Of a stretch of DNA of 44,666 bases, positions 2,820 to 25,617 are shown piece by piece. The notes below the pieces were generated by a model. The model was not told the DNA's origin. It searched no databases and worked only from the letters and a program-made list of their open reading frames with translations. Numbering within the stretch: position 1 is the stretch's first letter; every line of letters starts with the position of its first letter. Location: NCBI RefSeq assembly GCF_013376095.1, contig NZ_JAAMFN010000035.1, positions 1-44,666 on the forward strand. The letters are read 5' to 3'. Origin of the DNA: Arthrobacter sp. SDTb3-6. Lineage in GTDB: Bacteria; Actinomycetota; Actinomycetes; Actinomycetales; Micrococcaceae. The position numbers were made by a program, and so were the translations under genes.

Positions 2820-4070
2820 ATGACACAGACACGCATCGCTCCGCTAGAAGGCGTCCGCGTCCTTGAGCTGGGAAACTACATTGCCGCACCCACGGCTGGT
2901 CGGATGCTCGCTGATTTCGGTGCGGAGGTCATTAAAGTGGAGCGGCCAGGGTCCGGTGATGAACTGCGAAACTGGCGCCTGCACAAGGGTGACACGTCCA
3001 TGTTGTACCGCACGATCAACCGCAATAAGAAGTCCGTGGTGCTCGATCTTCGCACCGAGGCCGGGAAGCGGGCCGCGCTCAGGCTGGCCGCGAAATCGGA
3101 CATCCTGTTGGAAAATTTTCGCCCGGGGACACTCGAAAAATGGGGACTGGGCCCGAACGCGCTCAATGAAGCCAACCCGGAACTGATCATCACCCGCATC
3201 TCCGCCTTTGGACAGACCGGTCCGCTGTCGGCGCGTCCGGGGTTTGCCGCCGTCGCCGAGGCCTATGGAGGGTTCCGCAACCTGGTGGGTGACCCGGACC
3301 GCCCGCCAGTCCGCGTGGGCGTATCAATCGGCGACTCCATCGCTGGGCTTTATGCCGCCTTCGGGTCCGTGATGAGCCTCTACCAAAGGAATGCCCGACG
3401 GCGGGATGCGGCCGGCACCGTGCCGCTGTCGGAGCGGATCATTGATGTCGCGCTCAATGAAGCCATGTTCTCCATGATGGAATCACTCATCCCGGACTAC
3501 CAGGCCTATGGCGTGGAAAGGCAGCGCGTCGGCGGCCGCATGGAAGGGATTGCCCCATCGAACGCTTATTTCTGCAGGGACGGCTCGAGCATCGTCGTGG
3601 CCGGCAACGGGGACTCCATCTTCCAGCGTTACATGGACACCATTGGGCGCCCTGATCTGGCAGCTGACCCGACACTGCAGAGCAATGCCGGCCGCTGGGC
3701 CCGACGCGAGGAACTTGACCACGCCATCGGTGCGTGGACCGCCGGCCTTGACTCCGCAGACGCGCTGGCTGCACTTGATGCCGCCGGTGTTCCTGCCGGG
3801 CCCATATTCACGGCGGCGGATATCAGCACGGACAGCCAATACGCTGCCCGGAACATGATCCAGAGATTTGACGTTTCCACCGGCGAGGAGATACTGACCG
3901 GTGTCGGGTTCCCCGGAATTGTTCCGGTCATCGGCGGCCAATCGCTGCCCATCCGCAGCCTGGGCCCCGATCTGGGGGAAAACACGGCAGAAATTCTCTC
4001 CGGACTCCTTGAAATGGACGACGAAGAGATCAATGCGGCATCGGGCCGCGAGGAGGCACTTCAGCCATGA
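2820..4070 (+). CDS. CaiB/BaiF (family III) CoA-transferase
   Basis: 416 residues, full length for the family. It should move CoA from a donor such as succinyl-CoA or acetyl-CoA to a carboxylic acid. The N-terminal half has the family run LEGVRVLELGNYIAAPTAGR and ADFGAEVIKVERPG. The catalytic Asp is D172 in VSIGDSIAGLYAA, matching Asp169 of formyl-CoA transferase. The frame is open back to 2628, but the added 64 residues are not family-like and cross the operator repeats, so the ATG at 2820 is preferred. The stop overlaps the next start (ATGA), tying it to an HMG-CoA-lyase-like enzyme. The pair suggests activation of a 3-hydroxy-acid followed by cleavage. Confidence 0.9.
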   Translation: MTQTRIAPLEGVRVLELGNYIAAPTAGRMLADFGAEVIKVERPGSGDELRNWRLHKGDTSMLYRTINRNKKSVVLDLRTEAGKRAALRLAAKSDILLENFRPGTLEKWGLGPNALNEANPELIITRISAFGQTGPLSARPGFAAVAEAYGGFRNLVGDPDRPPVRVGVSIGDSIAGLYAAFGSVMSLYQRNARRRDAAGTVPLSERIIDVALNEAMFSMMESLIPDYQAYGVERQRVGGRMEGIAPSNAYFCRDGSSIVVAGNGDSIFQRYMDTIGRPDLAADPTLQSNAGRWARREELDHAIGAWTAGLDSADALAALDAAGVPAGPIFTAADISTDSQYAARNMIQRFDVSTGEEILTGVGFPGIVPVIGGQSLPIRSLGPDLGENTAEILSGLLEMDDEEINAASGREEALQP

Positions 4071-5067: not shown

Positions 5068-6057
5068 ATGGGCAACCGCTTCCTGGTCACTACCGCCATC
5101 CCGGATCCCGGACTGAAACTGCTCAGCGACGCCGGCCAGGTCACGGTGCTGCCCGAACCTCCCGACTACCCGACGCTTGCGGGTTTGTGTTCCTCGGGTG
5201 ATTTCGACGTCGTTCTCACCCAGCTGCGCGACGTGATTGACGCGCCGCTTTTGGCCCGTGCGCAGCTGCGGGGCGTGTCCAACTACGCGGTCGGGTACAA
5301 CAACATTGATGTTGCTGCTGCTGCCCGCTGTGGCATTCAGGTGGGCAACACCCCCGGTGTGCTGACGGATGCGACGGCGGACGTTGCCATGTTGCTCATC
5401 CTCGGCACCGCGCGCCGTGTGGTTGAATCCGACAATTTGGTCCGCACCGGCCAGTTCCGCGGCTGGGAACCCGAATTGCTTCTAGGACGGGATGTCTCCG
5501 GTGCTGTCCTGGGATTGGCCGGCTTTGGCCGGATCGCCCGTGCCACGGCCCGGCGTGCCCTCGGTTTCGGGATGGACGTGCTCTTCGCGCCGCGGCCTCC
5601 GGGGGATCGCCCGGTAGGCGAGGAGGAACTCGGCGAGTTTGCCGGCAAGATCCGGCAGGCGGGGTGGGATGAGCTTGTGGAACGCAGCGACTTCCTCTCC
5701 CTTCACGTGCCGCTGGTTGAGGAAACACGACACCTCGTGGATGCCCACGTGCTGCATCGAATGAAGCCCGGCGCGATCCTGATCAATACCGCCCGCGGGC
5801 CGATCGTCAACGAGGCGGACTTGGTGGATGCGCTGAGAGAGGGTGTCATCGCCGGTGCCGGGCTGGACGTATTTGAGGATGAACCGAGGCTGGCGTCCGG
5901 GCTGGCCGCGTTGCCGAACACTGTCCTGCTGCCTCATGTGGGAAGCGCCACCGTCGCTGTGCGCAGGGAGATGGCCCGACTGTGCGCCCTGAACGCCGTC
6001 GCCATGGCTGAAGGCCGCACGCTCCCGCATCCGGTGAATCTCCCCGCCTGGTCATGA
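5068..6057 (+). CDS. D-2-hydroxyacid dehydrogenase, NAD-binding
   Basis: 329 residues of the D-isomer 2-hydroxyacid dehydrogenase family (glyoxylate/hydroxypyruvate reductase type). It should interconvert a 2-oxo acid and its D-2-hydroxy acid with NAD(P). The Rossmann motif reads GLAGFGRIA, with Ala where the third Gly is usual. The catalytic triad is visible: Arg in NTARGPIVNEADL, Glu in GLDVFEDEP and His in LLPHVGSAT. Co-transcription with the CoA-transferase and lyase is very likely given the two-base gap. In context it may reduce an oxo acid product such as glyoxylate or pyruvate, or oxidise a hydroxy acid on entry. Confidence 0.88.
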   Translation: MGNRFLVTTAIPDPGLKLLSDAGQVTVLPEPPDYPTLAGLCSSGDFDVVLTQLRDVIDAPLLARAQLRGVSNYAVGYNNIDVAAAARCGIQVGNTPGVLTDATADVAMLLILGTARRVVESDNLVRTGQFRGWEPELLLGRDVSGAVLGLAGFGRIARATARRALGFGMDVLFAPRPPGDRPVGEEELGEFAGKIRQAGWDELVERSDFLSLHVPLVEETRHLVDAHVLHRMKPGAILINTARGPIVNEADLVDALREGVIAGAGLDVFEDEPRLASGLAALPNTVLLPHVGSATVAVRREMARLCALNAVAMAEGRTLPHPVNLPAWS

Positions 6058-6086: not shown

Positions 6087-6878
6087 TCACGCCTCGCCGG
6101 GGAACCTGCCGCTGATCAGCCTCGTCATGTTCTCGGCTGTTGCAAGCAGAGGTTCCACCCATGCCTGGCAGGTCTTCAGCGGCATACGCAGAGTGGGGCC
6201 ACTGACGGTCACCGCCCCCACCAACTCGGCCCTGGAGTCGAAAACCGGAGCCGAAAGACCGGAGGCTCCATCTTCACGCTCGCCCACTGTGATGGCATAT
6301 CCGTCGGTCCGGGTCTTTTTCACCGCAGAAACCAGATATTCCGAAGTAGTGATTGTCGCATCGGTGATCGACTCCAAGGGATCGCGTACGATGGCGTCCA
6401 TCAGCGGAGCATCCCAGGCCAGGAGGACACGGCCGGCAGAACCCGCGTGGAGCGGGAGGACCTTGCCAAGATGCATCTCCCGCCGAAGGGCATGGTGCGT
6501 TTCCGCCAGGGCGACACACATGCGCTCGCGCTGCTCGGTCTTGAAGAAGCAGGCAGTTTCGCCAGTGGCGTCCCTCAATTTCTTGAGCAAGGGACCGACT
6601 ATGTCCAGAACCTCCACACCGCGCGTGGCCGGGGCAGCCCAGTACGCCATGCGCATGCCAATGCGATAGGCATCCTCGTCCCGATCCAGGAAACCCTGGG
6701 ACGTCAAATTCGTGACAAGTCGCTGAACTGTGGAAGTGGGCAGGCCCGTGGACTCGCGAATATCGCCCAGCGACAACACCGGGCTCGAGAGCGAGAACGC
6801 GTCCAAGATCGAAGAGATCTTACCAAGGACAAGCAAGGCATTGCCGGTGGACTTCGTGGAATTCTCGGCGGCCGACAT
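6087..6878 (-). CDS. IclR-family transcriptional regulator
   Basis: 263 residues. An N-terminal winged helix-turn-helix (about 14-75, with LGDIRESTGLPTSTVQRLVTNL) is followed by an IclR effector domain with the family run ITVGEREDGASGLSAPVFDSRAELVGAV. IclR proteins usually bind small organic acids and palindromic operators. It is transcribed head-to-head with a close paralogue at 6977, and converges on the dehydrogenase gene. It is a likely regulator of the flanking CoA-transferase operon or transporter. Length and motifs are normal. Confidence 0.92.
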   Translation of the reverse strand: MSAAENSTKSTGNALLVLGKISSILDAFSLSSPVLSLGDIRESTGLPTSTVQRLVTNLTSQGFLDRDEDAYRIGMRMAYWAAPATRGVEVLDIVGPLLKKLRDATGETACFFKTEQRERMCVALAETHHALRREMHLGKVLPLHAGSAGRVLLAWDAPLMDAIVRDPLESITDATITTSEYLVSAVKKTRTDGYAITVGEREDGASGLSAPVFDSRAELVGAVTVSGPTLRMPLKTCQAWVEPLLATAENMTRLISGRFPGEA

Positions 6879-11905: not shown

Positions 11906-12964
11906 CTACCCCATGCCCATTCCACCGATTTCCGGCCCACGGGTGTGCGGCGGCTGGTAGGCGGTTTGCCGGCTGGTGGCCCAGTCGGAGAGGATGCCGT
12001 CGCGGACGAGGTGGTCGGTGAGTTGGGCCAGACGGTAATCCGGATCTGCTTCGAGGGCACGTTGGAAGCATTGGTGGGCTTTGCTTCCGTGGCCTTCCCA
12101 CCATTGGATGACGCCGAGGCTGGTCAGTACGGGAGCTGCGTCGGTGCCATCGGTGCGCATGTAGAGCTGCAGTAGGACCTCTGATGCGCGGTCGACGCGC
12201 TTCCAATGGGGGCTTTGCTTGGTTTGGCCCAGAAGCAGATCCCGCATGCTGTCGTCGATGCCGGGGATATCGGCGAGGAGACGGTCCCGGACGCTAATGA
12301 ATTTGAGGTTGGCGATGAGCTCCGCGGCCTCGTCGTCGGTAGGCTCGCTGCCGCCGTCGAGCATTTTGTTCCAGAGAGTCCTCGCCCTTTCAGTGGCAGC
12401 CTGCGGGGTCATCGCCTCGATTCGAAAGCAGTGCCGCATCACTTCGGTGCTGAGGGCCGGGCGGGCCATGACCGGGATGTGGAATCCGGGGGAAGTTTGA
12501 ATGCTGGATCCGCGGAAGACGAGCTCGGCGTTGAGTTCGCTGGACAGGATCCGGTCCAGCGAATGGCTGGGCGTTGAGTCGTCGCCCATGCGCAGGTAGT
12601 TGGTGAAGGTCGTTTCTCCAACGACCCAGCCATCCCGGACGAAGACGTCCTGTTCGCCGAGCTTCTCGGTCAACTCCGCCATCACGTCCTCGTGCGGACG
12701 AATTTCCCCAGGGTTCAAGGAGGCGTGGGTAAAGATGCCGAAAACGACGGCGGTTGCCTCCCTGTCAGTGGCGACGTAGCGCAGGATCTGCTCGACGAAG
12801 TGATTGGTGTCAGCGCCTGGCGCCGGAAGGTCCACCCTGAGGGTGGAGCCGATGCAGCGACCGTCCAAGGTAACGCAGACCAGGCTTTCCTGTGGCCAGA
12901 AGCCCAGGCTGTGGCCCATCATGGCGATGAAGTCGTCAGGGGTTTTGATGCTGAGCTTTTCCAT
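11906..12964 (-). CDS. DUF4192 domain protein (cassette A)
   Basis: 352 residues from the ATG at 12964, chosen because GGAGG lies four to five bases upstream. The first ~200 residues fit DUF4192, an actinobacterial domain without a proven function (start reads MEKLSIKTPDDFIAMMGHSLGF, with QESLVC and FVRDGWVVGETTF). The C-terminal part contains a short TPR-like stretch (VIQWWEGHGSKAHQCFQRALEADPDYRLAQL). It is the last gene of a four-gene minus-strand cassette and is about 100 bases after the membrane protein gene. A close copy is at 23021-24079; the two match along the whole length including the PPHTRGPEIGGMGM tail. Role unknown. Confidence 0.88.
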   Translation of the reverse strand: MEKLSIKTPDDFIAMMGHSLGFWPQESLVCVTLDGRCIGSTLRVDLPAPGADTNHFVEQILRYVATDREATAVVFGIFTHASLNPGEIRPHEDVMAELTEKLGEQDVFVRDGWVVGETTFTNYLRMGDDSTPSHSLDRILSSELNAELVFRGSSIQTSPGFHIPVMARPALSTEVMRHCFRIEAMTPQAATERARTLWNKMLDGGSEPTDDEAAELIANLKFISVRDRLLADIPGIDDSMRDLLLGQTKQSPHWKRVDRASEVLLQLYMRTDGTDAAPVLTSLGVIQWWEGHGSKAHQCFQRALEADPDYRLAQLTDHLVRDGILSDWATSRQTAYQPPHTRGPEIGGMGMG

Positions 12965-13063
12965 GATGCCTCCACATGGCGGTGCAGCTGGCTGATGCCA
13001 ACTACACACATTCATGGTTGGGAGGCGCGCTAACTACATGACCGGGCTCTGGCGGGTGTCGTT

Positions 13064-14032
13064 TCAGTGCCCTTGGAGGAGCTGTTCGGCTTGGTTGACG
13101 AGGACTCGGTCGCGGGGGAGTAGCGTCAAGCCGCGCAGTTGGGCGTCCCGGACCTCGACCACGCGGCGCTGAAGATGGCCTGTGACCCGGCGTGCAACGG
13201 GGTCAAGGAGGGGTGTCCAGCGGTTGCGGAGCAGATATTTTCGCTGGGTGCTGCTGCGCCGCCAGACAGGAGTCATTAGCACCATCAGCCACCGTGAGCG
13301 GATATTGCGCCGCAGGAGTCCCAACGATTCGCGGAAACGCGGCAGCACGAGGCCGATGCTAACGAGGATTACGGCCAGGGTTTCAAGAATGGCAAAGGAC
13401 CAGTTCAGCACGCCAAGCCAGGGGTTTCCGTAGGCCGGGGAGGCCTCGAGCATTCCGAGCAGGAGCCGGTTTCCCAACGCCAGCGCCATGAAGATGCACC
13501 CTGCAGCAAAACAACCAAAGCCCGATTTGAACGTCCTGCTTCTCATCCTGGGAAGGAACCGAAAGCATGTCAGGGCGGCGTCGGCGCAGACCCAGATGAT
13601 GAACGCCGAGCCCATCCAAAGAAAGACCTGCATGCCTGGTTGGCTGCCGTAAGCCAAGGGCAGGTTCTGGTTGGTCACATCCACACGGCTACTGAAGAAG
13701 CCGGCGACGACGCACGTGCCAGCCAGAGCGAGGGCCAGGCGTCCACGCACGAGGTGGTGCCGCCGTCGTACTTGGCCACTGATGGCGGCCAGCACCGTGG
13801 CGGTGTGGAATTGCCAGAAACTGACCATGATGGCTATGACCAGGGCCAGTCCGACGTGGTTGCGGCCGCCGAGGATGGGATCGGCCGCGTTGTAGACGGC
13901 AGGGATAAACAGTGTGCAGGCCAAGGCGGCGAAGAACGTGGCGCGCAGGACGGGGGCGCGCTCCCTGTCCAAGGCCGTGCGGATCCGGACGAGCGTCAGC
14001 AGCCACAGCATGGCCGCCGGCACGTATTCCAT
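13064..14032 (-). CDS. MAB_1171c-like membrane protein (cassette A)
   Basis: 322 residues with six to seven hydrophobic helices in the first ~220 residues, then a soluble basic C-terminal part. That part includes HLQRRVVEVRDAQLRGL, a run like the LYRRVxEIRDGxLALRPY region of MAB_1171c family putative transporters. The function of that family is not established. The start ATG overlaps the TAA of the ImmA/IrrE-like gene by one base, so the peptidase and membrane protein are coupled. The paralogue at 24173-25141 has exactly the same length. Confidence 0.75.
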   Translation of the reverse strand: MEYVPAAMLWLLTLVRIRTALDRERAPVLRATFFAALACTLFIPAVYNAADPILGGRNHVGLALVIAIMVSFWQFHTATVLAAISGQVRRRHHLVRGRLALALAGTCVVAGFFSSRVDVTNQNLPLAYGSQPGMQVFLWMGSAFIIWVCADAALTCFRFLPRMRSRTFKSGFGCFAAGCIFMALALGNRLLLGMLEASPAYGNPWLGVLNWSFAILETLAVILVSIGLVLPRFRESLGLLRRNIRSRWLMVLMTPVWRRSSTQRKYLLRNRWTPLLDPVARRVTGHLQRRVVEVRDAQLRGLTLLPRDRVLVNQAEQLLQGH

Positions 14033-14505
14033 TATCCGAAGACCTTGCTGAAGCCTGCAGGGTCTGCCGGAAGATCCTGAGAGCGGGAGACACGTTCCAT
14101 CAGGAGGCCGGCCAAGAGCTCGGTTGCTGCCTCGTCCTCATCCTCGAAGCTGGTGCGGCCCAGTACCTGTATTGGTCCTCCCGGGAATCCGGGGAGGTCC
14201 ACCATCAGCTGTGAGGTCGGGGTGCACCGGTGTCCAAGGATCAGATGGGCGAACTCGTGCAGGATGACGTACTGCCGATGCCACGACGAGTTGAGTGGGG
14301 CATGCAAGACATAATCAACTCCATCGTGGAGGAACCAAAACCCGCAAATATCGTTCCCACGCAGGGTACTGAGTTCCCCGATGACGATGGGGCGGCCGTT
14401 CTTGGCCTCGATCCAGGACTGGATGGAGCTGAGGCCAGGGTGATCGCCAAGCTCAAGCTGAGAGAGGGCACGTTGCACGATGTTGCGGGTCTTTCGCTTA
14501 GTCAT
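14032..14505 (-). CDS. ImmA/IrrE-type zinc metallopeptidase (cassette A)
   Basis: 157 residues. The gluzincin motif HEFAH at 83-87, followed by LILGH, is that of ImmA/IrrE (peptidase M78-like) proteins. In phages and conjugative elements these cleave repressors; in actinobacteria they often sit beside MAB_1171c-type membrane proteins. An acidic run EDEDEAATELLAGLL later supplies the probable third zinc ligand. The ATG at 14505 is preferred to 14544. No partner helix-turn-helix repressor gene is seen next to it, which is unusual for ImmA-type systems. Of the four cassette proteins this one differs most from its partner (25141-25617). Confidence 0.82.
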   Translation of the reverse strand: MTKRKTRNIVQRALSQLELGDHPGLSSIQSWIEAKNGRPIVIGELSTLRGNDICGFWFLHDGVDYVLHAPLNSSWHRQYVILHEFAHLILGHRCTPTSQLMVDLPGFPGGPIQVLGRTSFEDEDEAATELLAGLLMERVSRSQDLPADPAGFSKVFG

Positions 14506-14687
14506 GGCCGGGCCTTGGGGAAACGGCCGCCCTGATGGGCGCACAGGGCAATCGCTGTGCTTGTGTGCCCCACGGGTTGGTGCTGGCGGACGGACATGGA
14601 CGGACCGATCGATGTGCTTCGGCGGCTGTGACGATTCACCGCGTACTTCATGCTAGATCCGTCCGAGGCGGCTGGCCAGACGTGAGT

Positions 14688-16976: not shown

Positions 16977-17179
16977 AGGACTACGCTATCCCGATGATCG
17001 CAGCTGCCACGCGCCGAGCTGTGCCGAGAAATTCTTACACAAGTCGTCCCCGTTCGCTCTTGTGCTGACAGAAACGCAATGCCCTTGGCATAAGCTGTTT
17101 GTGGTGCAGTGGGCTGCATCAGGTGGAAGTGTTTCTATCCAGATTTGGGACTTTCCCATTCGTGCCAGAGGAGACTGCA

Positions 17180-18517
17180 TTGGACGACGAGATTGAACTG
17201 TTTGGTGATGAAAATGGCATAGCGCTCATCGGTGATCCGGCAGCAATCGAGCGCTTTCTGGCATCGGAGGGCCTGCCGTCGAAAGACCTTGGGTTGCCGA
17301 GGCTGGGGTCGGCTCTCATTGCGGGGGCCGGAGCAGCACAGGCCAGTGCCGAGATTGCCGCGAACGCTGGCCGCTGGGTGAAGCTGACCGAGAAATCAGC
17401 CAAAGCGCTAAAGTCCACTGAGCTTATGAAAGGGTCGGAGGCGGGCGTTCGCCGTGCCGTCCTGATGAAGAATGGAAAGATCTCAGGACTCCTCGAAATA
17501 ACTAAGACTCCCGCACAGATTCTGACCAACCCTGCTGCGCTGTCTAGCGTCGCCGGCTTGATGTCGCAGGCCGCCATGCAGCAGCAGATGGACGAGATCA
17601 CGGACTACTTGGCAATTATCGATGAAAAAGTCGACGGCATCCTTCGTGCCCAGAAAGACGCCGTGCTGGCTGACATGATCGGGGTTGGACTAGTTGTCGA
17701 TGACGCTATTACAACTCGGGATACAGTCGGGAGGGTGTCCGAAGTCACCTGGTCGAAAGTGCAAGCATCGTCGCTGACCGTCGCAAGCACCCAGATGTAT
17801 GCGCTGCGGCAGATGGATGCGCTGGCAGAGAAGATGGAGCGAAAGTCTAAAATAGGTGATGTCGCCAAGGCGGCGCAAGAAACTGAGCCCAAGGTTCGCG
17901 AGTGGATTGCCGTCCTAGCTCGGTGCTTCCAGCTATACGACTCGCTGGCTGTGCTTGAACTTGACCGTGTCCTGGATGCTTCTCCCGAGGAGCTTGATAG
18001 TAATCGACGTGCCCTACGTGTGGCTCGGCAGAATCGACTTGATCAAATCACGCGGAGAACTGAGCAACTGCTTTCAAAGATGAATGCTGCCGCTGGATGG
18101 GCCAACACGAAAGTACTCCTTCATCCAACAACAGCACGGACGGTGGTTCAGTCAAATAATAAGGTGGAAACTGCCCTGAATGAGTTCCACAAGTGCCTCG
18201 GCATTGAGGACGGCCAGCAATCTGTCGAGGCCAAAACTTGGGTAGAGGCGGTCGTTGATGTTCGCGACAAAGTGATCGAAACGGGTGCAGATGGTGTCGA
18301 CGCTACCAAACGCATTAGTAGTGATGCCTTTGGTCTAGCACGGACAACAACCGACAAGGTCCTTGAATCAGGATCTGATGGCGTCGATGCAACGAAGCGT
18401 TTTGGTAGTGAAGCACTGGGTCGGGCGCGGACAATAAGCGACAAGGTCTCGATCGGGCTTGCCGAACGTTTGCTCCGTCGGGTCGCGGACGATGAGAGGC
18501 CTGAGCGAGAGGGCTGA
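17180..18517 (+). CDS. Unknown protein with C-terminal 29-residue repeats
   Basis: 445 residues from a TTG start at 17180, chosen because AGAGGAG sits seven bases upstream and the protein then begins (M)DDEIELFGDENGIALIGD. The frame is open to 17099 without a ribosome site. It contains an Ala-rich segment (LIAGAGAAQASAEIAANAG), a long helical middle (DEITDYLAIIDEKVDGILRAQKDAVLADMIG) likely to form coiled coil, and a C-terminal repeat of unit DKVxExGxDGVDATKRxxSxAxGxAR. No signal peptide is seen. Similar proteins exist as hypotheticals in actinobacteria as far as I recall; I can name no domain. Its place just before the RT pair makes a defence accessory role possible. Confidence 0.75.
   Translation: MDDEIELFGDENGIALIGDPAAIERFLASEGLPSKDLGLPRLGSALIAGAGAAQASAEIAANAGRWVKLTEKSAKALKSTELMKGSEAGVRRAVLMKNGKISGLLEITKTPAQILTNPAALSSVAGLMSQAAMQQQMDEITDYLAIIDEKVDGILRAQKDAVLADMIGVGLVVDDAITTRDTVGRVSEVTWSKVQASSLTVASTQMYALRQMDALAEKMERKSKIGDVAKAAQETEPKVREWIAVLARCFQLYDSLAVLELDRVLDASPEELDSNRRALRVARQNRLDQITRRTEQLLSKMNAAAGWANTKVLLHPTTARTVVQSNNKVETALNEFHKCLGIEDGQQSVEAKTWVEAVVDVRDKVIETGADGVDATKRISSDAFGLARTTTDKVLESGSDGVDATKRFGSEALGRARTISDKVSIGLAERLLRRVADDERPEREG
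18266..18460 (+). repeat. 87-bp in-frame coding repeat, about 2.3 copies
   Basis: GACAA(A/G)GT starts units at 18266, 18353 and 18440, exactly 87 bp (29 codons) apart. Copies 1 and 2 are full, and copy 3 keeps only DKVSIGLAERLL. DNA has diverged at synonymous sites while the peptide DGVDATKR is kept in both full copies, implying selection on the protein. Likely an amphipathic helical repeat. Confidence 0.85.
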
Positions 18518-18773: not shown

Positions 18774-20198
18774 GTGAAAGACGTCTTTCCGTCCGTGAGG
18801 GATATGAAGCAGATATTCTTCAAGCAGCAACGCCGGAAGAATATTTTGCCTGAACATGCGGTTCTCACGGCCCACTTTAACGAAAAGATAGTAGCCCTAC
18901 GCCGGTCCATCATAGAGTCAAATGATAAAGAAGAACAGAAAGAACTAAACTCAGAGCTTGAAACTGCTCTAAATTCCAAGCGAGATGTTGAAGATCTATT
19001 CTTTCAGAAGCAGGTAGATCGAGTGACGAACTACATGCTCAATCAACCAGATACGATTCGACTTTCGCGAGGGCCTCGTGCGGACCGTGAGATAACTACC
19101 TTCAGCAAAAGACGTCCAACTATAACGCTTTTTGATAGATATATTGCACTGGTTCTTACGCGCGCATTCCGAGTGCATAGCGTTGGGCGAGACCACGTAA
19201 TCAGAAATTTAATTAACGCTCTACGAATTACACTAGGATCAAGTCAAGCTAATCGGTCGATAATCAAACTAGATATTGAAGAATGTTTCAAAAATATTGA
19301 CCACGAAATCTTGATGAATAAGTTAGGCTCCCACGCCGGAGTGCCCAGATTTGTCCTCAAGCATGTGGCATCAGTATTGAATTCTTACGAGCGAATTTAT
19401 GGACAAAGGCGGGGCCTGCCGCAAGGTGTGCCTTCCTCATCAGTATTGGCGGAGATATATTTTGAAAAATTTGATAATCGACTACGACAGCACCCTCGCA
19501 CGGTTCTATATGCAAGGTATGTTGACGACATTGTAATTGTGTGCCATGGAAACGAAATCGTATCAGTACAAGAAACAATTTCCGAACAACTGGGGTTACT
19601 TAAATTTAAAATAAATGAACTAAAATCCGAAAAAATTAGTCATCCGTCTGACATAAATACTGACCTAACCTATCTTGGGTATACATTTGCATTTAATGCT
19701 GGTAGTGGACAGCTTCAAGGCATAGATATTTCTGAAGATAAGTTCAATCGATATGAAATGGCATTGTGTCGCCTGGAGCAGTTTGGAAAGAATCAAGTCT
19801 GTTGGAGTAGATCCCAAGATGTGGACCTATTTCTTGGAGGCTTCGAGTACCTGATCTATCAGCATCACTCAAAGGGGGACGAAGACTCGCCGAGAATCGT
19901 TACGGGACTCGGCTACAGCGCGCGTTACGTACTCCAGGTGAATGGATCTATGCCGAGAGTAGAAAGTCTAATCAAGAGCGCTTTTCATCGATCAAAGCCG
20001 ATTCTCGGGAGCGTCTTACGTGGCAATTCGAACAGTGCCATTTGTCCATGCTGCGGAGGGCCAGTTGTGCGGGCGGATGAGCTAATGCGCATTCAGAGGC
20101 AGAAGTCGGTCCAGCCGTCCAAAATTCTCGCGTCCAACGCAAAACCGCATCTTGACGACGAAATGCGACTACGGATCCAGAGGTTGTTGTGGAATTAG
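18774..20198 (+). CDS. drt3a: Defence reverse transcriptase, DRT3 first subunit (UG3-like)
   Basis: 474 residues. Contains a complete RT palm: motif A KLDIEECFKNID (D167), motif B-like RRGLPQGVPSSSVLAEIYF (about 212-230) and catalytic YVDD at 249-252, then GYTFAF-type thumb approach. No maturase domain or HNH, so not a group II intron enzyme. The C-terminus has a short CPCCGG knuckle. The GTG start has GGGACGG eight bases upstream; ATG 18804 is an alternative. The stop overlaps the next RT by ten bases. Two unlike adjacent RTs is the hallmark of DRT type 3, where the first RT copies an AC-repeat in a non-coding RNA into poly(GT). DNA here is much AT-richer than its surroundings, indicating transfer. 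Confidence 0.85.
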   Translation: MKDVFPSVRDMKQIFFKQQRRKNILPEHAVLTAHFNEKIVALRRSIIESNDKEEQKELNSELETALNSKRDVEDLFFQKQVDRVTNYMLNQPDTIRLSRGPRADREITTFSKRRPTITLFDRYIALVLTRAFRVHSVGRDHVIRNLINALRITLGSSQANRSIIKLDIEECFKNIDHEILMNKLGSHAGVPRFVLKHVASVLNSYERIYGQRRGLPQGVPSSSVLAEIYFEKFDNRLRQHPRTVLYARYVDDIVIVCHGNEIVSVQETISEQLGLLKFKINELKSEKISHPSDINTDLTYLGYTFAFNAGSGQLQGIDISEDKFNRYEMALCRLEQFGKNQVCWSRSQDVDLFLGGFEYLIYQHHSKGDEDSPRIVTGLGYSARYVLQVNGSMPRVESLIKSAFHRSKPILGSVLRGNSNSAICPCCGGPVVRADELMRIQRQKSVQPSKILASNAKPHLDDEMRLRIQRLLWN

Positions 20199-22306
20199 TT
20201 CGAGGTGGGGCATCGCGGCTCAGGGCGCTGGCAACTGAGTGCCTTCCGTTTGAAATGCCGCTTGAGGCGGGATCTCCATGGCTTTATGAGTGGTTTGACA
20301 GTCGATTCGTGACGGCGAATACTGCGGGAGTCCGAGTGCGGGCTAGTAGCAGGAAGGATTTGCTTCTGCTTACTTTGATCGGCGCAAGTGATAAAGTTCC
20401 GGTCTTTGCGGGTGCTAGCTTGAAAAGGACCGTGACCATTAGCGCGGAGCAAGTTTCTAAGACATGGCGAGCACCAGCGTCTTTTCTGGTCAGGCGTGAT
20501 CAGTTGAGAACTAGGCAGCTGGATCTCCTTGCGCTCGGGTCCCAGGTTGCTATTGCCCTCGCCTATTCGACGCACAAGGACTCAATTCTATATTTCGCGG
20601 GTCGCAGCAGGGTTTCATTACGCTTCCCTTCAAGAGTCACTTCGCCAGGAAAGCATTTGCAATCGCGATTCAAAGAGAATCGACCGAATCGTACAGTGCC
20701 CATTGAAACCACCGGTAGACGACTCGGTACATTTAACTCCTTCTTTGCTTATGAAAAATATGCATTTGTGGGTGAATTTTATGATTCTAAGAGATGGAAC
20801 GCGCTTGAAGCTCATTGGCGCTTCTTGCGGAGGGTCGATGTTTCGAATTGCTTCAAGAGCATTTACACCCATTCATTTGCATGGGCTACAGGTAGTGATG
20901 CTCACAGCAAAGCTCATCTGGGCGGCACCACTGCATTTAGCCAGTTAGATTTTGGGCGCGCATTCGACAAAGTAATGCAAACGGCCAATTGGGGAGAGAC
21001 TCATGGAATATGTGTGGGCCCAGAGGCCTCGCGAATTTTTGCCGAGATTATTTTTCAGAAATTTGATCTGGAAATTGTAAATCGACTACATAAAATTGGC
21101 CTAAGACCCGATAATTATGAAATACTTCGCTATGTTGATGACTATTTTATTTTCACTCGCGAAGACAGTGATATCGATAAGATTTCAAATGTTATTAGTG
21201 AAGTGCTGGCTGAGGGGGGTTTCACTCTCAATACGGCGAAGACCAAGGACTATGTAACACCATTCACGACGGAGATTTCGTTGAAGAAAGCGATGCTAAA
21301 GGTGTTCCTTAAGCAATCTCTGCCGTTCAAGGGAAAGCTGCCAAATTACGATATCCGAGAAGTTAGCGTACATCTAAAGGCGGCGCTCGTGGGTTCGGAA
21401 AACGATGCGCAAGCGGTTGGTGCATCGTTGAGTCAAGTGGAACTTCGCCTGCGGAAGTTCCTGACAAAGCGAGCCCCGAAATGCAAGGACGTGGAGAAGG
21501 CGAGGGCCCTTTCGGAGTATGCATGGAGCTTTGTTCACAGCATGCTTTATCAGTACCTTTCGCACCCGTCGGTTTCCTCCGCGATGAAGGTTGTTCGAGC
21601 GTTGCGAGATTTCCGAAGATCGTCAAAATTGTATGCCAAGCTATCTCCCCGAGATCTCCAAACCATAGAGTACCAAGCGGACGAATTCCTTCACTTCGCG
21701 GTAACTCGTGCAATTCAACGCCTTGTTAATGTGCCAGGAAGTGAAGTCGAACTCTGCCACTTTTTGTCGCTGGCGTCTGCAAGTAATCTTGACCTCTCTG
21801 GTGCAAGTGGACTGGTCGTGTCTCTGGCGGGGCGTCTTGATGAATGTGCTGAGCGTGGTCGCTCTCCGAAGTCCAACCAGGCGGGCGTGTTTCTAATGCT
21901 CTCTGTTTTGAAATACTTCATGGCTGAAGGTCGAGCAAGCAAGCAGGACAGAGCCAGACTCTTGAGTGTTACTGGGAAGTTCGCCAATACACTTTTCTCT
22001 AGGGAGTTCCTGCCAGGCGGTCGCATCAAGAGGCACGCTTCGCAGGAACTGTTCCTACTCGCACTTCTTGAGTGTCCTTTCATAGAGGCAAAGCTGAAGC
22101 TTGACTTGCTTGACAAGCCTTGGGTCAGAGCAGTGCTTATTGGTGAGATGGAGCTTCCTGAGCCTCAGGCCAAGTCGGCCCGTCGATTCTTAAAGCGATG
22201 TATCGCGGATGAAGAAACCGAAAGCGGCGCCCTGGCTGCTTTTGCTTGGGATGATGACGACTTTGATGCGTTACTTTACGAAAAGGAGCCACAGTTCATA
22301 TACTGA
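20189..22306 (+). CDS. drt3b: Defence reverse transcriptase, DRT3 second subunit (UG8-like)
   Basis: 705 residues from GTG 20189, with AGAGG five bases upstream. RT motifs: D217 in RRVDVSNCFKSIYTHSF, a motif B variant GICVGPEASRIFAEIIFQKFD (about 273-293) and YVDDYFIF with catalytic YVDD at 315-318. The ~200 residues before motif A and ~380 after the palm are unlike the first RT; the C-terminal part is helical, as in Abi-type RTs. N-terminal acidic residues E22 and E26 deserve comparison, because the partner RT in DRT3 makes poly(AC) without a nucleic acid template, using protein residues (from memory of recent work). It overlaps the first RT gene by ten bases; the structured non-coding stretch follows directly. 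Confidence 0.84.
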   Translation: MELVRGGASRLRALATECLPFEMPLEAGSPWLYEWFDSRFVTANTAGVRVRASSRKDLLLLTLIGASDKVPVFAGASLKRTVTISAEQVSKTWRAPASFLVRRDQLRTRQLDLLALGSQVAIALAYSTHKDSILYFAGRSRVSLRFPSRVTSPGKHLQSRFKENRPNRTVPIETTGRRLGTFNSFFAYEKYAFVGEFYDSKRWNALEAHWRFLRRVDVSNCFKSIYTHSFAWATGSDAHSKAHLGGTTAFSQLDFGRAFDKVMQTANWGETHGICVGPEASRIFAEIIFQKFDLEIVNRLHKIGLRPDNYEILRYVDDYFIFTREDSDIDKISNVISEVLAEGGFTLNTAKTKDYVTPFTTEISLKKAMLKVFLKQSLPFKGKLPNYDIREVSVHLKAALVGSENDAQAVGASLSQVELRLRKFLTKRAPKCKDVEKARALSEYAWSFVHSMLYQYLSHPSVSSAMKVVRALRDFRRSSKLYAKLSPRDLQTIEYQADEFLHFAVTRAIQRLVNVPGSEVELCHFLSLASASNLDLSGASGLVVSLAGRLDECAERGRSPKSNQAGVFLMLSVLKYFMAEGRASKQDRARLLSVTGKFANTLFSREFLPGGRIKRHASQELFLLALLECPFIEAKLKLDLLDKPWVRAVLIGEMELPEPQAKSARRFLKRCIADEETESGALAAFAWDDDDFDALLYEKEPQFIY

Positions 22307-22470
22307 GATGGCGTTGTGCGTAACTTGTGTTCTTAGCGACTTGTTATGCATCGGGGGGTGGACCCCTCGGGGGCCTTGTCCCGACACACACAATGTATCC
22401 GGGTTCTCCCATTTCCCCCTAGTAACGAGCTGCATAGCTTGTAACTAGGGGGAAACATACTTATGCAACG
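22307..22470 (+). ncRNA. Candidate DRT3 non-coding RNA with AC-repeat
   Basis: A gene-free, strongly folded stretch directly after the second RT. In order: GU-rich TTGTGT (22325-22330), hairpin GGGG-TGGA-CCCC (22355-22366), hairpin TCGGG-N8-CCCGA (22367-22384), an ACACACACA run (22384-22392), then a 44-base stem-loop (22412-22455). That stem has a perfect 12-bp outer helix (TTTCCCCCTAGT / ACTAGGGGGAAA), an A-A mismatch and a 7-bp inner helix with one G-U pair around a GCAT loop. DRT3 ncRNAs are known to carry an AC-repeat template for the first RT. ACACAA (22388-22393) can also pair with TTGTGT. The ends are not defined; transcription could be from the RT operon or its own promoter. Confidence 0.7.
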
Positions 22471-23020
22471 AGCCTATGAGCGCCGAACGGTGATTGGACC
22501 CCCAGTTTTCGCCGCGGGGATGGGACGTTGCGACCGCCAATGGCGTCACTGACCATCCGGATTTCGGAGCTGGTGCATCCGACATTGCGACGGATCTGGC
22601 CAAGCGGAAGTCATCTAGATATGGCCCGGACCTAGGTGGCCTGCAGACCATCATAGGATACCGCTGGGCCGGCACCGATAGGTGATCAGCTCCTGCGGGG
22701 CGGAAAGGGGCGACTGTAATGAGCCCAGTGTGCAATGAGACGGACATTCTTGTGGTGACTGGATCACCTCAGGGCCACTTTACAAAAGTCAGTGCAGCAG
22801 TTCCGACCGAGTCACCTGAAACCTACCGGTTTGAAGCAAAAGCAACAGCAATATAGTAGCTATCGTTGTTGCGTCTGTGCCACAAGAACAAAGGTCAAAA
22901 GCCATAAACGGAAAGTGTGATGCGGTCCTCGGGCCTAAAGCGGGGTTCGTCGGTTCGATGGGTTGCCTGTCTACCTTGCCGAACGACGTTCAGCCGGCTT
23001 GTCCGCCTCACTGCCGATGC
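22471..23020. other. Gap between RT locus and cassette B
   Basis: No gene is supported. Open frames on both strands are short or antisense shadows of DUF4192. GC content returns to host level from about 22480, so the transferred AT-rich segment seems to end near the ncRNA candidate. A piece near 22740-22820 (with a run GGTGACTGGATCACCTCAGG) may derive from an insertion sequence, but no terminal repeats or transposase are seen. No tRNA or attachment site was found. Confidence 0.45.
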
Positions 23021-24079
23021 CTACGCCATCCCCATCCCGCCGATTTCGGGTCCCCTGGTGTGGGGTGGTTGGTAGGCGTTTTGGCGGTTGGTGGCCCAGT
23101 CGGCGAGGATGCCGTCTCGGACGAGGTGGTCGGTGAGTTGGGCGAGGCGGTAGTCGGGGTCCGCCTCGAGGGCTTGTTGGAAGCACTCGTGGGCTTTGCT
23201 GCCGTGGCCTTCCCACCATTGGATGACGCCGAGGCTGGTGAGGACGGGTGCGGCGTCTACGCCGTCGGCGCGCATGTAGAGGTGGAAGAGGACTTGGGTG
23301 GCACGGTCCACGCGCTGCCAGTGGGGGCTTTGCCTAGTCTGGCCCAGAAGGAGGTCGCGCATGCTCTCATCAATGCCCGGGATGTCGGCGAGGAGCCGGT
23401 CGCGGACGGTGATGAATTTGAGGTAGGCGATGAGTTCGGCGGCTTCATCGTCGGTGGGGTTGGCGCCGCCGTCGAGCATTCTGCCCCAGAGCTCCCTGGC
23501 CTGGGCGGTGGCGTCCTGTGGGTTCATGGCCTCGATCCGGTAGCAGTGGCGGAGGACTTCGTGGCTGAGGTCGGCGGTCGCGGTGACGGGGACGTGGAAG
23601 CCGGGGGAGTTGTCGATGCTGGAACCGCGGAAGACGAGTTCGGCGTTGAGCTGGCTGCCCCTGATCCCCTCCAGAGAATGCTGGGTGGGGCGGCCTGAAT
23701 TCAGGTGGAGGTAGTTGGTGAAGGTGGTTTCGCCGATGAGCCAGCCGTCGCGGACCGTGATGCCTTCGCCGCCCAGCCGCCGGGTGAATTCGTTGAGCAT
23801 GTCCTCGTGGGGGCGCGGGTCCCCGGGGTTCCAGGGGGCGTGGGTGAAGATGCCGAAGACGACGCCGGTGGCTTGGTGGTCGGTGGTGATGTAGTGCAGG
23901 AGCTGGTCGGTGTACCGGGCGGTGTTGGTGGTGGGGGAGGGCAGGTTGACGCGGAGGCTGGCACCGATCCGGCGCCCGTCCAGGACCATGCAGACCAGGG
24001 ATTCCTGGGGCCAGAAGCCCAGGCTGTGTCCCATCAGGGCGATGAAGTCGTCAGGGGTTTTGATGCTGAGCTTTTCCAT
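23021..24079 (-). CDS. DUF4192 domain protein (cassette B)
   Basis: 352 residues from ATG 24079, which has GGAGG just upstream as in copy A. Sequence begins with the same MEKLSIKTPDDFIA and keeps the QESLVCMVLDGRRIG and FTVRDGWLIGETTFTNYL-like runs and the TPR-like C-terminal stretch. Differences cluster in the middle (about residues 60-130) rather than at the ends. It closes cassette B, about 93 bases after the membrane protein gene. Function unknown; the very long plus-strand frame at 22877-23698 is its antisense shadow. Confidence 0.88.
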   Translation of the reverse strand: MEKLSIKTPDDFIALMGHSLGFWPQESLVCMVLDGRRIGASLRVNLPSPTTNTARYTDQLLHYITTDHQATGVVFGIFTHAPWNPGDPRPHEDMLNEFTRRLGGEGITVRDGWLIGETTFTNYLHLNSGRPTQHSLEGIRGSQLNAELVFRGSSIDNSPGFHVPVTATADLSHEVLRHCYRIEAMNPQDATAQARELWGRMLDGGANPTDDEAAELIAYLKFITVRDRLLADIPGIDESMRDLLLGQTRQSPHWQRVDRATQVLFHLYMRADGVDAAPVLTSLGVIQWWEGHGSKAHECFQQALEADPDYRLAQLTDHLVRDGILADWATNRQNAYQPPHTRGPEIGGMGMA

Positions 24080-24172
24080 GATGCCTCCGGTGTTGGGGCC
24101 GGCGGGTGCCGGTAACACCTGTTCATGGACGACGGCGGCGAAAACTACGTGACCAACCGCAAGCTGGGCGCT

Positions 24173-25141
24173 CTAACGGCCCTGGAGAAGTTGTTCGGCC
24201 TGGCTGATGAGGACCCGGTCTCGGGGGAGGAGCGTCAGTCCGCGCAGCTGGCAGTCGCGGATCTCGATGACGCGGCGGTGCAGGTGCGCGGTGGCCTGGC
24301 CGGTGACCGGGTCCAGGATGGGGGTCCAGCGGTTGCGGAGCCGGTATTTGCGTTCGGTGCTGCTGCGCCACCAGGCCGGGGTCAGCAGGGCCATGAGCCA
24401 GCGGGAGCGGAGGTTTCGGCGGAGCAGTCCTGGGGATTCACGGAAGCGTGGGAGCATGAGCCCGATGCTGACCAGGAGCACGGCCAGGGTTTCCAGGATG
24501 GTGAACGACCAGTTCAGCCCGCCCAGCACCGTGCTGTTGCGGGCGGGGGATTCCTCGAGGAGTCCGAGGGCGAGGCGGTTGCCTAGGGCCAGGGCCATGA
24601 GGGTGCAGCCGGCGGCGAAGGCGCCGACGCCGGACTTGAAGGTCCTGCTGCGCATCCTGGGCAGGAATTTCAGGCAGGTGAGGGCGACGTCGGCGCATAC
24701 CCAGATGATGAAGGCCGAGCCGGCCCAGAGGAACAGCTGCATGCCCGGCTGGTTCCCGTAGGCCAGGGGGAGGTTCTGGTTCGTGGCATCGACACGGCTG
24801 GCGGCGAAGCCGGCAATCACGCAGGCCCCGGCCACGGCGGCAGCGAGCCGTCCGCGCCCAAGGTGGCGCCGCCGTCGTGCGTTGTTGGTGATGGCGGCCA
24901 GGACGGTGGCGGTGTGGAACTGCCAGAAGCCGGCCAGGATCGCGGTAATCAGGAGAAGGCCCACATGGTTGTGTCCGCCCAGGAGCGGGTCGGCGGCGAT
25001 GTAGACGGCGGGGATGAAGAGGGTGCAGGCGACGGCGGCGAAGAACGTGGCGCGCAGCACGGAGGCGCGTTCCCTGTCGCGGGCGGTGGGGATGCGGATA
25101 AGGGTGAGCAGCCACAGCATCGCTGCGGGCACGTAGTCCAT
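24173..25141 (-). CDS. MAB_1171c-like membrane protein (cassette B)
   Basis: 322 residues, collinear with copy A without gaps. Six to seven helices precede a soluble tail with HLHRRVIEIRDCQLRGL. The N-terminus is almost the same as copy A (YVPAAMLWLLTLxRIxTAxDRERAxVLRATFFAA), so membrane topology and partner are probably conserved. Start overlaps the peptidase stop by one base. The family has no proven substrate. Confidence 0.75.
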   Translation of the reverse strand: MDYVPAAMLWLLTLIRIPTARDRERASVLRATFFAAVACTLFIPAVYIAADPLLGGHNHVGLLLITAILAGFWQFHTATVLAAITNNARRRRHLGRGRLAAAVAGACVIAGFAASRVDATNQNLPLAYGNQPGMQLFLWAGSAFIIWVCADVALTCLKFLPRMRSRTFKSGVGAFAAGCTLMALALGNRLALGLLEESPARNSTVLGGLNWSFTILETLAVLLVSIGLMLPRFRESPGLLRRNLRSRWLMALLTPAWWRSSTERKYRLRNRWTPILDPVTGQATAHLHRRVIEIRDCQLRGLTLLPRDRVLISQAEQLLQGR

Positions 25142-25617
25142 TAGCCGAAGACTTTGTGGAAGCCGGCGGGGTCGTTGGGGGCCGCCGGTGGGTGGTGGTT
25201 GATGCGGGCGCTGAGGAGGTCGGCGAGCATTTCCGCGGCGGCTTCGGCGTCGTCCTCGTAGCTGACCCGGCCGAGGACCTGGAGGGGGGTGTCGGGGAAT
25301 CCGGGCAGCTTCGTGAGATCGAGGGAGGTTGCGGTCCGGTAGTGGCCCAGGATCAGGTGGGCGAATTCATGCAGGATGATTTGCTGCAGGTGCCAAGATG
25401 ATTTCGGCGTGGCATGCACGACGGAGATGTAGTCCTCGTAGGTCATGCACAGTCCGCAGAGGTCGTCGCCCTTCATGGTGGGGAGTTCTTCGATGGTGAT
25501 GGGGCGGCCGCGCCTGGCCTCAATCCAGGCCTGGATGCTGTTCAGGGACGGGTTCTCGCCGAGGTCCAGCTGGCGGTTGGCGAGGCGGACCTGGCGGCGG
25601 ATTCGTAGCTTGCTCAC
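25141..25617 (-). CDS. ImmA/IrrE-type zinc metallopeptidase (cassette B)
   Basis: 158 residues with a GTG start. The zinc motif HEFAH is again at 83-87 with LILGH after it, and the C-terminus ends DPAGFHKVFG like copy A. Outside the zinc helix and the tail it is clearly less similar to copy A than the other three proteins are to their partners, especially at the N-terminus and around residues 50-75. That would fit changed target recognition with an unchanged catalytic core. The ribosome site is weak (AAGG). Confidence 0.82.
   Translation of the reverse strand: MSKLRIRRQVRLANRQLDLGENPSLNSIQAWIEARRGRPITIEELPTMKGDDLCGLCMTYEDYISVVHATPKSSWHLQQIILHEFAHLILGHYRTATSLDLTKLPGFPDTPLQVLGRVSYEDDAEAAAEMLADLLSARINHHPPAAPNDPAGFHKVFG

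Follow-up and report, generated by a model that had tools for sequence, protein, structure and literature searches.

Does the stretch that follows two adjoining reverse transcriptase (RT) genes in Arthrobacter sp. SDTb3-6 encode the template RNA of a type 3 defence-associated reverse transcriptase (DRT3) system? The genes lie on contig NZ_JAAMFN010000035.1 of assembly GCF_013376095.1, which was analyzed over its full 44,666 nucleotides (nt) and is called the window here, and the stretch behind them carries an AC repeat, ACACACACA. As described in PMC13174585, DRT3a of E. coli copies the ACACAC of a non-coding RNA (ncRNA) encoded downstream of DRT3b into poly(dTdG). This ACACAC adjoins a stem-loop, and mutation of the template abolishes both poly(dTdG) and defence (PMC13174585). 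The same account has DRT3b produce poly(dCdA) with priming at Y666 and no nucleic acid as template, and the double-stranded product lead to abortive infection when RecBCD is blocked (PMC13174585).

Our analysis indicates that positions 22307 to about 22474 on the plus strand very probably encode the ncRNA of a DRT3 anti-phage system, with an AC run that Drt3a would copy to poly(dTdG) while Drt3b would make the partner strand. The basis for this reading is the pair of RTs, their key residues, the position of the RNA gene, its conservation and its predicted structure. RNA binding, copying, the products and defence itself would follow by analogy from the published E. coli system.

The two reverse transcriptases and the stretch behind them

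The locus is laid out as follows (bp, base pairs).

18774..20198, plus strand: drt3a, a UG3-type RT of 474 amino acids with the motif YVDD; presumably the enzyme that uses the RNA template (PADLOC Drt3a, 1.8e-54)
20189..22306, plus strand: drt3b, a UG8-type RT of 705 amino acids with an alpha-helical C-terminal domain (PADLOC Drt3b, 1.2e-117)
22304-22306, plus strand: stop codon TGA of drt3b (direct reading)
22307..22474, plus strand: predicted DRT3 ncRNA, approximate extent (fold z -5.10; drop of identity to the related fragment L103; match of covariance model R3 at 22348-22412)
22310..22316, plus strand: predicted 5' strand of an outer helix, GGCGUUG, with partners 22466-22469 and 22472-22474 (minimum-energy fold)
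22317-22350, plus strand: hairpin SL1, variable in sequence, with a long hairpin predicted at the same place in relatives (fold)
22352-22369, plus strand: hairpin SL2, 7 bp and a 4-nt loop, directly adjoining SL3 with a gap of 0 (standard pairs in six of six clade members, hairpins picked by eye)
22370-22382, plus strand: hairpin SL3, 5 bp, followed by one spacer base and then the template; presumed 5' template boundary (fold and relatives)
22384-22392, plus strand: ACACACACA, presumed template for poly(dTdG), 78 bases past the drt3b stop (direct reading)
22387..22395, plus strand: CACACAAUG, a clade signature overlapping the 3' end of the template (6 of 96 DRT3 downstream stretches)
22401..22410, plus strand: hairpin SL4, small, 3 bp (folds)
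22412-22455, plus strand: hairpin SL5, 44 bases, with a 12-bp outer and a 7-bp inner helix (z -7.47 for 22396-22460)
22466..22474, plus strand: predicted 3' strand of the outer helix (minimum-energy fold only)

The two RT genes overlap by 10 nt. For the 18774..20198 open reading frame (ORF), Drt3a was the best of 90 PADLOC families, with 183.8 bits compared to 112.2 bits (6.6e-33) for UG17, the RT family of DRT10. The Drt3b of the window has Glu22, Arg282, a YVDD at 315-318 and a terminal Tyr705. Across 89 Drt3b rows, window included, the Glu22 column holds E in 87, D in one and a gap in one annotated fragment, while R at the Arg282 column and the catalytic Asp pair are each found in 89 of 89. 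A terminal Tyr is present in 83 rows, the remainder being four gaps, one A and one F. Judging by the LPxE motif, the spacing relative to YVDD and the location at the C-terminus, we infer that Glu22, Arg282 and Tyr705 are the equivalents of E. coli E22, R241 and Y666. Neither RT frame is interrupted, and every key residue is present.

Structure models were built from 18-row alignments (A11, A12) and compared with a fold library up to 8 April 2026, considering the best 50 matches per model. The AlphaFold model of Drt3a (mean predicted local distance difference test score, pLDDT, 85.7) has the RTs of DRT9, group II introns and DRT2 as its nearest solved folds among the matches listed, and that of Drt3b (mean pLDDT 83.1) has DRT4, DRT6 and AbiK; no DRT3 chains were among the matches listed for either model. 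By sequence search, the solved Drt3 entry 9z6y was matched by Drt3a at 1.5e-8 and by Drt3b at 1.9e-42.

An earlier note, made from the letters of this DNA alone, had described an AC run, a stem-loop of 44 bases whose 12-bp outer helix is perfect, and two small hairpins, with no T-run and no ORF. The positions it gave for ACACACACA and the stem-loop are exact. The small hairpins were recovered as SL2 and SL3, SL1 being a third that the note had not listed, and direct reading confirmed that there is no T-run. Nothing gene-like was found in the stretch, so that this part of the description stands; a mechanical ORF of 100 amino acids on the minus strand (22445-22747) does overlap its 3' end. As the note had also said, the run is the only one in the RT region, counting alternations of at least six. 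The plus strand of the window has six of these, the other five being at 6514, 10673, 13004, 30013 and 36593. ACACACACA itself occurs five times in the 4.31 Mb genome on both strands, with 0.0002 expected per 350 nt of one strand.

Folding of 22300-22480 gave -75.1 kcal/mol, a value that 0 of 200 shuffles equalled. Most of this signal comes from the SL5 part, where TTTCCCCCTAGT (22412-22423) and ACTAGGGGGAAA (22444-22455) pair at 12 of 12 positions, beginning 106 bases past the drt3b stop. The 5' arm, 22307-22396, has an unexceptional energy (z -1.89, 9 of 200 shuffles as good), and the same holds for SL2-SL3, 22352-22383 (z -1.14, 26 of 200). Since fold energy alone is unexceptional here, the hairpins before the template rest on the comparison with relatives.

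Recurrence of the AC run in DRT3 loci

We surveyed 89 loci, namely the window, eight plasmid loci and the best 80 of 461 candidates (one genome per species), leaving out L001-L005, which are the own genome or other RTs. Of the 89, 87 have an ORF that scores above 40 with the Drt3a profile, and the two exceptions, L080 and L089, start beside drt3b at a contig end. At least 250 nt follow drt3b in 88 loci, L030 being excluded for too little sequence, and 87 of these, window included, carry an AC run of at least six within 350 nt 3' of drt3b. The sole survey locus without it, L086, has a short Drt3b ORF. By comparison, random segments taken from these loci had such a run in 240 of 4145 cases (5.8%), and the ends of other ORFs with at least 250 amino acids had one in 19 of 365 (5.2%). 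This recurrence supports the view, put forward in the earlier note, that the stretch is the cognate ncRNA with its template.

Among 96 loci with a run (these 87 and nine more, of 98 tried), 67 have a simple hairpin of at most -2 kcal/mol that borders the run on its 5' side, with a gap of 0 in 37 of the 67. The corresponding values were 20.6% for 1920 control places and 21.4% for 1920 shuffles. Together with the analogy to DRT10, the hairpin survey points to SL3 as the probable 5' template boundary. Viral contigs were examined as a set of 32 loci, some of which share contigs with the 89-locus survey. Here, 24 of the 26 loci with a Drt3b-profile score above 200 carry the AC run, and six lower-scoring lone viral RTs have none downstream, one of them, L134, being without sequence past the gene.

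Other layouts were seen as well. The nearly identical Lactobacillaceae plasmid loci L139 (NZ_CP013155.2) and L140 (NZ_CP085475.1) are Bacillota-type DRT3 with divergent RT genes (L139 in PADLOC: Drt3a 7.5e-72, Drt3b 2.9e-119). The gap between these genes (~3556-3814) holds ACACAC on the drt3a strand and folds to -63.9 kcal/mol over 260 nt, a value without shuffle control. The viral contig L131, also with a Bacillota-type pair, has ACACACACA in its gap (3608-3772), on the strand opposite both RT genes. The sequences of these three loci suggest that the template RNA gene moved to between the RT genes. L132 (IMGVR_UViG_2822325623_000001; PADLOC Drt3a 2.5e-36, Drt3b 4.2e-117) shows no plus-strand AC run of six downstream or in the gap; the minus strand offers the sole candidate close by, a 6-nt CACACA at 5692-5697, 120 nt past drt3b. 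Its Drt3b is without the usual C-terminal VY end, and L132 is a possible case of a different repeat product. When the viral contigs were scanned again for pairs of this sort, L131 and L132 came back and no others.

The actinobacterial clade and its predicted RNA scaffold

A tree of 95 Drt3b rows was computed by a quick method, with support from the Shimodaira-Hasegawa-like approximate likelihood ratio test only (L008, L030 and L086 dropped, the fragment L103 not entered). It places the window in one clade with L014 (Brevibacterium antiquum CNRZ 918), L015 (Cryobacterium sp. Y11), L016 (Frigoribacterium endophyticum) and L096, a genome of the window's own family, with a support of 100 and a stem of 2.78 changes per column; the program warned of long branches near this clade. 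The Drt3b of L014 is 62% identical to that of the window over kept columns. L103, a contig fragment whose Drt3b is 70% identical over its last 69 residues, is the sixth clade member by similarity.

DNA identity between the window and L103 runs through the end of drt3b and the RNA to about 22460, with background beyond; per 40 columns it falls from 0.85 to 0.55 and 0.35 around 22441-22461. This drop gives a better 3' limit for the RNA than any fold does. The earlier expectation that the place behind the operon gives the boundaries of the RNA was borne out in part, at the 3' side: conservation ends near 22460, and the predicted outer helix would reach 22474.

CACACAAUG is found at the template of all six clade members, window included, and in none of the other loci among the 96. 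SL2 and SL3 can be drawn with standard pairs throughout in all six, mostly with different sequences, these hairpins having been picked by eye; SL3 is weak in L014 and missing from the minimum fold of the L015 5' half. The outer helix of SL5 is retained in L103, a long hairpin of other sequence stands in its place in L014 and L096, and the hairpin is shorter in L016 and not clear in L015. As judged from these sequences, the clade RNA is built on a scaffold of its own, with three predicted hairpins before the template and CACACAAUG.

A further feature of the clade lies in Drt3a. Its C-terminus (window 20043-20150) has CPCC at residue 424 and PH 35 residues on, at 459. CxCC with a later PH or AH near the C-terminus was found in five of five readable clade Drt3a proteins (L103 has none), and the other eight Drt3a rows of alignment A2 have a gap at this stretch. 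The CPCC...His of clade Drt3a could possibly be a metal-binding clamp on the RNA.

We then turned to covariance models, a check that the earlier note had proposed. R3, built from L014, L015, L016 and L096 without the window, matches the window with 36.0 bits (E 1.6e-8) and also L103 (27.3 bits, 9.3e-6); the next match in 46 sources (468 kb) has 13.6 bits and E 0.22. The stretch passes this check, with E-values that are rough because of short calibrations. R3 holds 6 base pairs only, and sequence counts in it for at least as much as structure does. With R2, built with the window included, the window scored 63.7 bits and the next place in the whole genome 18.1. In whole-RNA alignments of the clade made with MAFFT (A3, A4), the differing lengths of SL1 and SL5 left the result too poor to count pairs, and modelling was hence confined to the core (A6, A8). 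RNAalifold, run on A6, gave 9 pairs, of which 4 are kept with changes on both sides, and several cells are broken. A helix closing the template loop was dropped as a clade feature; it is clear in the R1 group described below and predicted in the window, and not demonstrable clade-wide.

For R1, 30 RNAs were taken from other loci, 28 of them in Pseudomonadota, one in Bacteroidota and one in Verrucomicrobiota; the model has 19 pairs, 14 of them with changes on both sides. It clearly matches L027, L008 (an E. coli plasmid) and L065, followed by L080 at 39.8 bits. Weak matches of 24.0 bits or less are L093, L054, some Bacteroidota and others, and the match in L013 is off its AC run. R1 matches neither E. 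coli chromosomal locus, L104 or L105, and with E up to 10 in 50 sources it matches 0 of 18 actinobacterial sources, window included. Because R1 finds no actinobacterial source, the RNA scaffold is not recognisably common to the clades, as far as sequence models can tell, while the AC template is. The earlier note had expected a conserved AC run with the same folds behind related RT pairs. Both recur inside the clade; outside it the run recurs and the folds do not.

The Pseudomonadota-type RNA (A7: L040 7002-7130, L031 7032-7160 and 28 similar) has a clearly covarying architecture, with a 5-bp helix around the template loop, a hairpin before it and an 8-bp hairpin after it. An Rfam family could be curated from A7. 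Rfam gave no family at the DRT3 RNAs of eight other loci, and L139, with its RNA elsewhere, was also scanned; over these nine DRT3 loci it returned just a tRNA and an unrelated antisense RNA, both off the DRT3 RNAs.

Mechanism, rival explanations and known systems

If the locus works like its E. coli counterpart, Drt3a would bind the RNA, with ACACACACA single-stranded and held behind SL3 as the 5' stop. Drt3a would copy ACACACACA 3' to 5' repeatedly, the growing strand slipping back by AC homology to yield poly(dTdG). The complementary poly(dCdA) would come from Drt3b, which would need no nucleic-acid template: synthesis would be primed at its last residue, Tyr705, and Glu22 and Arg282 would select A and C alternately. 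The strands would anneal, and undegraded double-stranded repeat DNA would halt the infected cell. A bolder proposal, which we regard as rather unlikely, is that DRT3 has an invariant template and a scaffold rebuilt per lineage, replaced here together with an RNA-holding Cys-rich C-terminus of Drt3a. The AAUG that invariably follows the AC run would then be the start or loading site, and the strands would open with a non-repeat CATT before the GT repeats.

A number of observations weigh against a DRT3 RNA at this place. In the fold of 22307-22396 alone, part of 22310-22316 pairs with 22390-22396, which would hide the 3' half of the template inside a helix; this pairing and the outer helix are mutually exclusive, and both are predictions, obtained from folding different stretches. 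NCBIfam scores both proteins under its equivalog cut-offs, which are naming thresholds and do not define the proteins biochemically (Drt3a 162.9 bits, cut-off 200; Drt3b 321.7 bits, cut-off 350). The Rfam scan of the window gave no match at gathering score, and R1 fails in the actinobacteria. The survey rows are not fully independent, since the 89 Drt3b proteins form 81 clusters at 90% identity, and besides the window and the plasmid loci they were the best-scoring candidates. The distant viral pairs L131 and L132 are without an AC run downstream of drt3b, and 29 of the 96 loci have no hairpin of the required strength 5' of the run, clade member L014 (-1.3) included. Finally, the host genome has no RecC match, and its RecB match is far under the cut-off (80.4 compared to 696 bits).

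Could the structure simply be the 3' untranslated end or terminator of the operon, with an incidental AC run? A strong GC-rich 12-bp stem-loop less than 150 nt past the stop would fit. However, no T-run follows the stem, no terminator-like call was made there, further predicted hairpins and the clade-wide CACACAAUG lie upstream of the stem, and the run, besides the stem, is what recurs, in 87 of 88 loci, all of which makes a terminator very improbable. Similarly slim is the chance that the RNA gene is decayed or silent in this host. Its location in a low-GC island, the divergence of the RNA and a host in which no RecBCD was found could be read in that way, but the two RT genes are unbroken and carry every key residue, and the RNA is conserved towards L103, whose Drt3b fragment is 70% identical.

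Less probable still is another RNA-templated system, DRT10-like or DRT9-like, in which the AC template would be a coincidence. The order of hairpin and then template is also that of DRT10, and the modelled Drt3a fold resembles the DRT9 RT. Against this stand the Drt3a profile (183.8 compared to 112.2 bits for UG17), the presence of a Drt3b partner, and AC runs being the rule in loci with a Drt3a/Drt3b pair. A chance dinucleotide run we likewise consider barely credible. AC alternations of at least six are found six times on the plus strand of the 44.7-kb window, but nine-base runs number just 5 in 4.31 Mb, and the recurrence in relatives contradicts chance. The DRT3 ncRNA remains by far the most probable reading.

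The surroundings of the operon and the host add context. A promoter-like TTTACG-18-TATACT lies over the end of drt3b (22275..22304, plus strand); it is weak, and its bases are coding. As an own promoter for the RNA it was rejected, seven such sites being present in 4.6 kb where 5.3 are expected in shuffles. ARAGORN found no tRNA or tmRNA in the window. The GC content is 44.7% for drt3a, 49.6% for drt3b, 53.3% for the RNA and 61.3% for the window. A three-gene module (a DUF4192 protein, a protein of 322 amino acids and one of 158-170) is present twice, at 11906-14544 and 23021-25617, both on the minus strand; protein identities between the copies are 74, 78 and 54%, and DNA identity is about 75%. 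The copies flank a lower-GC stretch with a Schlafen/AlbA_2 gene, an unknown gene and DRT3, which from its sequence looks like an insertion between diverged repeats. Just upstream of drt3a, 17099-18517 encodes a 472-amino-acid protein with a short repeated stretch (GVDATKR) and no PADLOC, NCBIfam or Pfam match; it may or may not be part of the system.

Actinobacteria are known to use AdnAB instead of RecBCD. As RecC has no match in the host genome and RecB is far under its cut-off, the E. coli RecBCD 'guard' cannot apply as such. GreA is present in the host with 129.8 bits, under its cut-off of 139. The window holds a compact DRT3 from a host without a RecC match, and since the proposed RecBCD guard cannot work there as in E. 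coli, the trigger model becomes testable in another setting. A 2026 review names as an open question whether DRT3 systems are all of one architecture or fall into subtypes that put out other repeats (PMC13314766). Our survey provides a partial answer: the AC template is nearly universal in the examined loci, and the scaffold differs between clades. Exceptions are a few distant pairs of Bacillota type, with the AC run placed elsewhere or not clear.

How does this locus compare with known systems? Our searches of open-licence papers turned up none that deals with actinobacterial DRT3 RNAs, and 'actinobacteria', 'actinomycet' and 'Streptomyces' are absent at word starts from the main text of PMC13174585. 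A 6:6:6 DRT3 complex has been described by Deng et al. 2026, as told in PMC13314766. With the E. coli system the window shares the order drt3a-drt3b-ncRNA, an AC template, an adjacent stem-loop and the Glu, Arg and C-terminal Tyr of Drt3b. It differs in two predicted hairpins after the template, CACACAAUG, a Cys-rich Drt3a C-terminus and a host without a RecC match, and its AC run has 9 nt compared to the conserved ACACAC described for E. coli (PMC13174585). Identity to the E. coli homologues L104 and L105, which are not the proteins of the published strain, is 19-20% for Drt3a (A9) and 20-21% for Drt3b (A10). The Pseudomonadota-type RNA likewise has its AC template right behind a hairpin, 3' of drt3b; the differences are that a single hairpin precedes the template, that a covarying 5-bp helix encloses it, and that the model R1 misses the window.

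DRT9 is similar in having a Class 2 UG RT with a templating ncRNA, and the Drt3a model of the window is closest to DRT9 chains among the matches listed. DRT9 is not known to have a Drt3b-type second RT. It differs further in its poly-uridine template, which gives poly(dA) (PMC13174585, PMC12632851). The DRT10 ncRNA resembles that of the window in its hairpin-then-template order, with telomerase-like repeat addition, but DRT10 combines a UG17 RT with a SLATT gene, and its template sequence differs from system to system, unlike the AC template, which hardly varies among the DRT3 loci studied here (PMC12632851 for DRT10). Compared with these systems, the locus would be a far-diverged actinobacterial DRT3 whose RNA is a new structural variant, and its mechanism is expected to be the known one.
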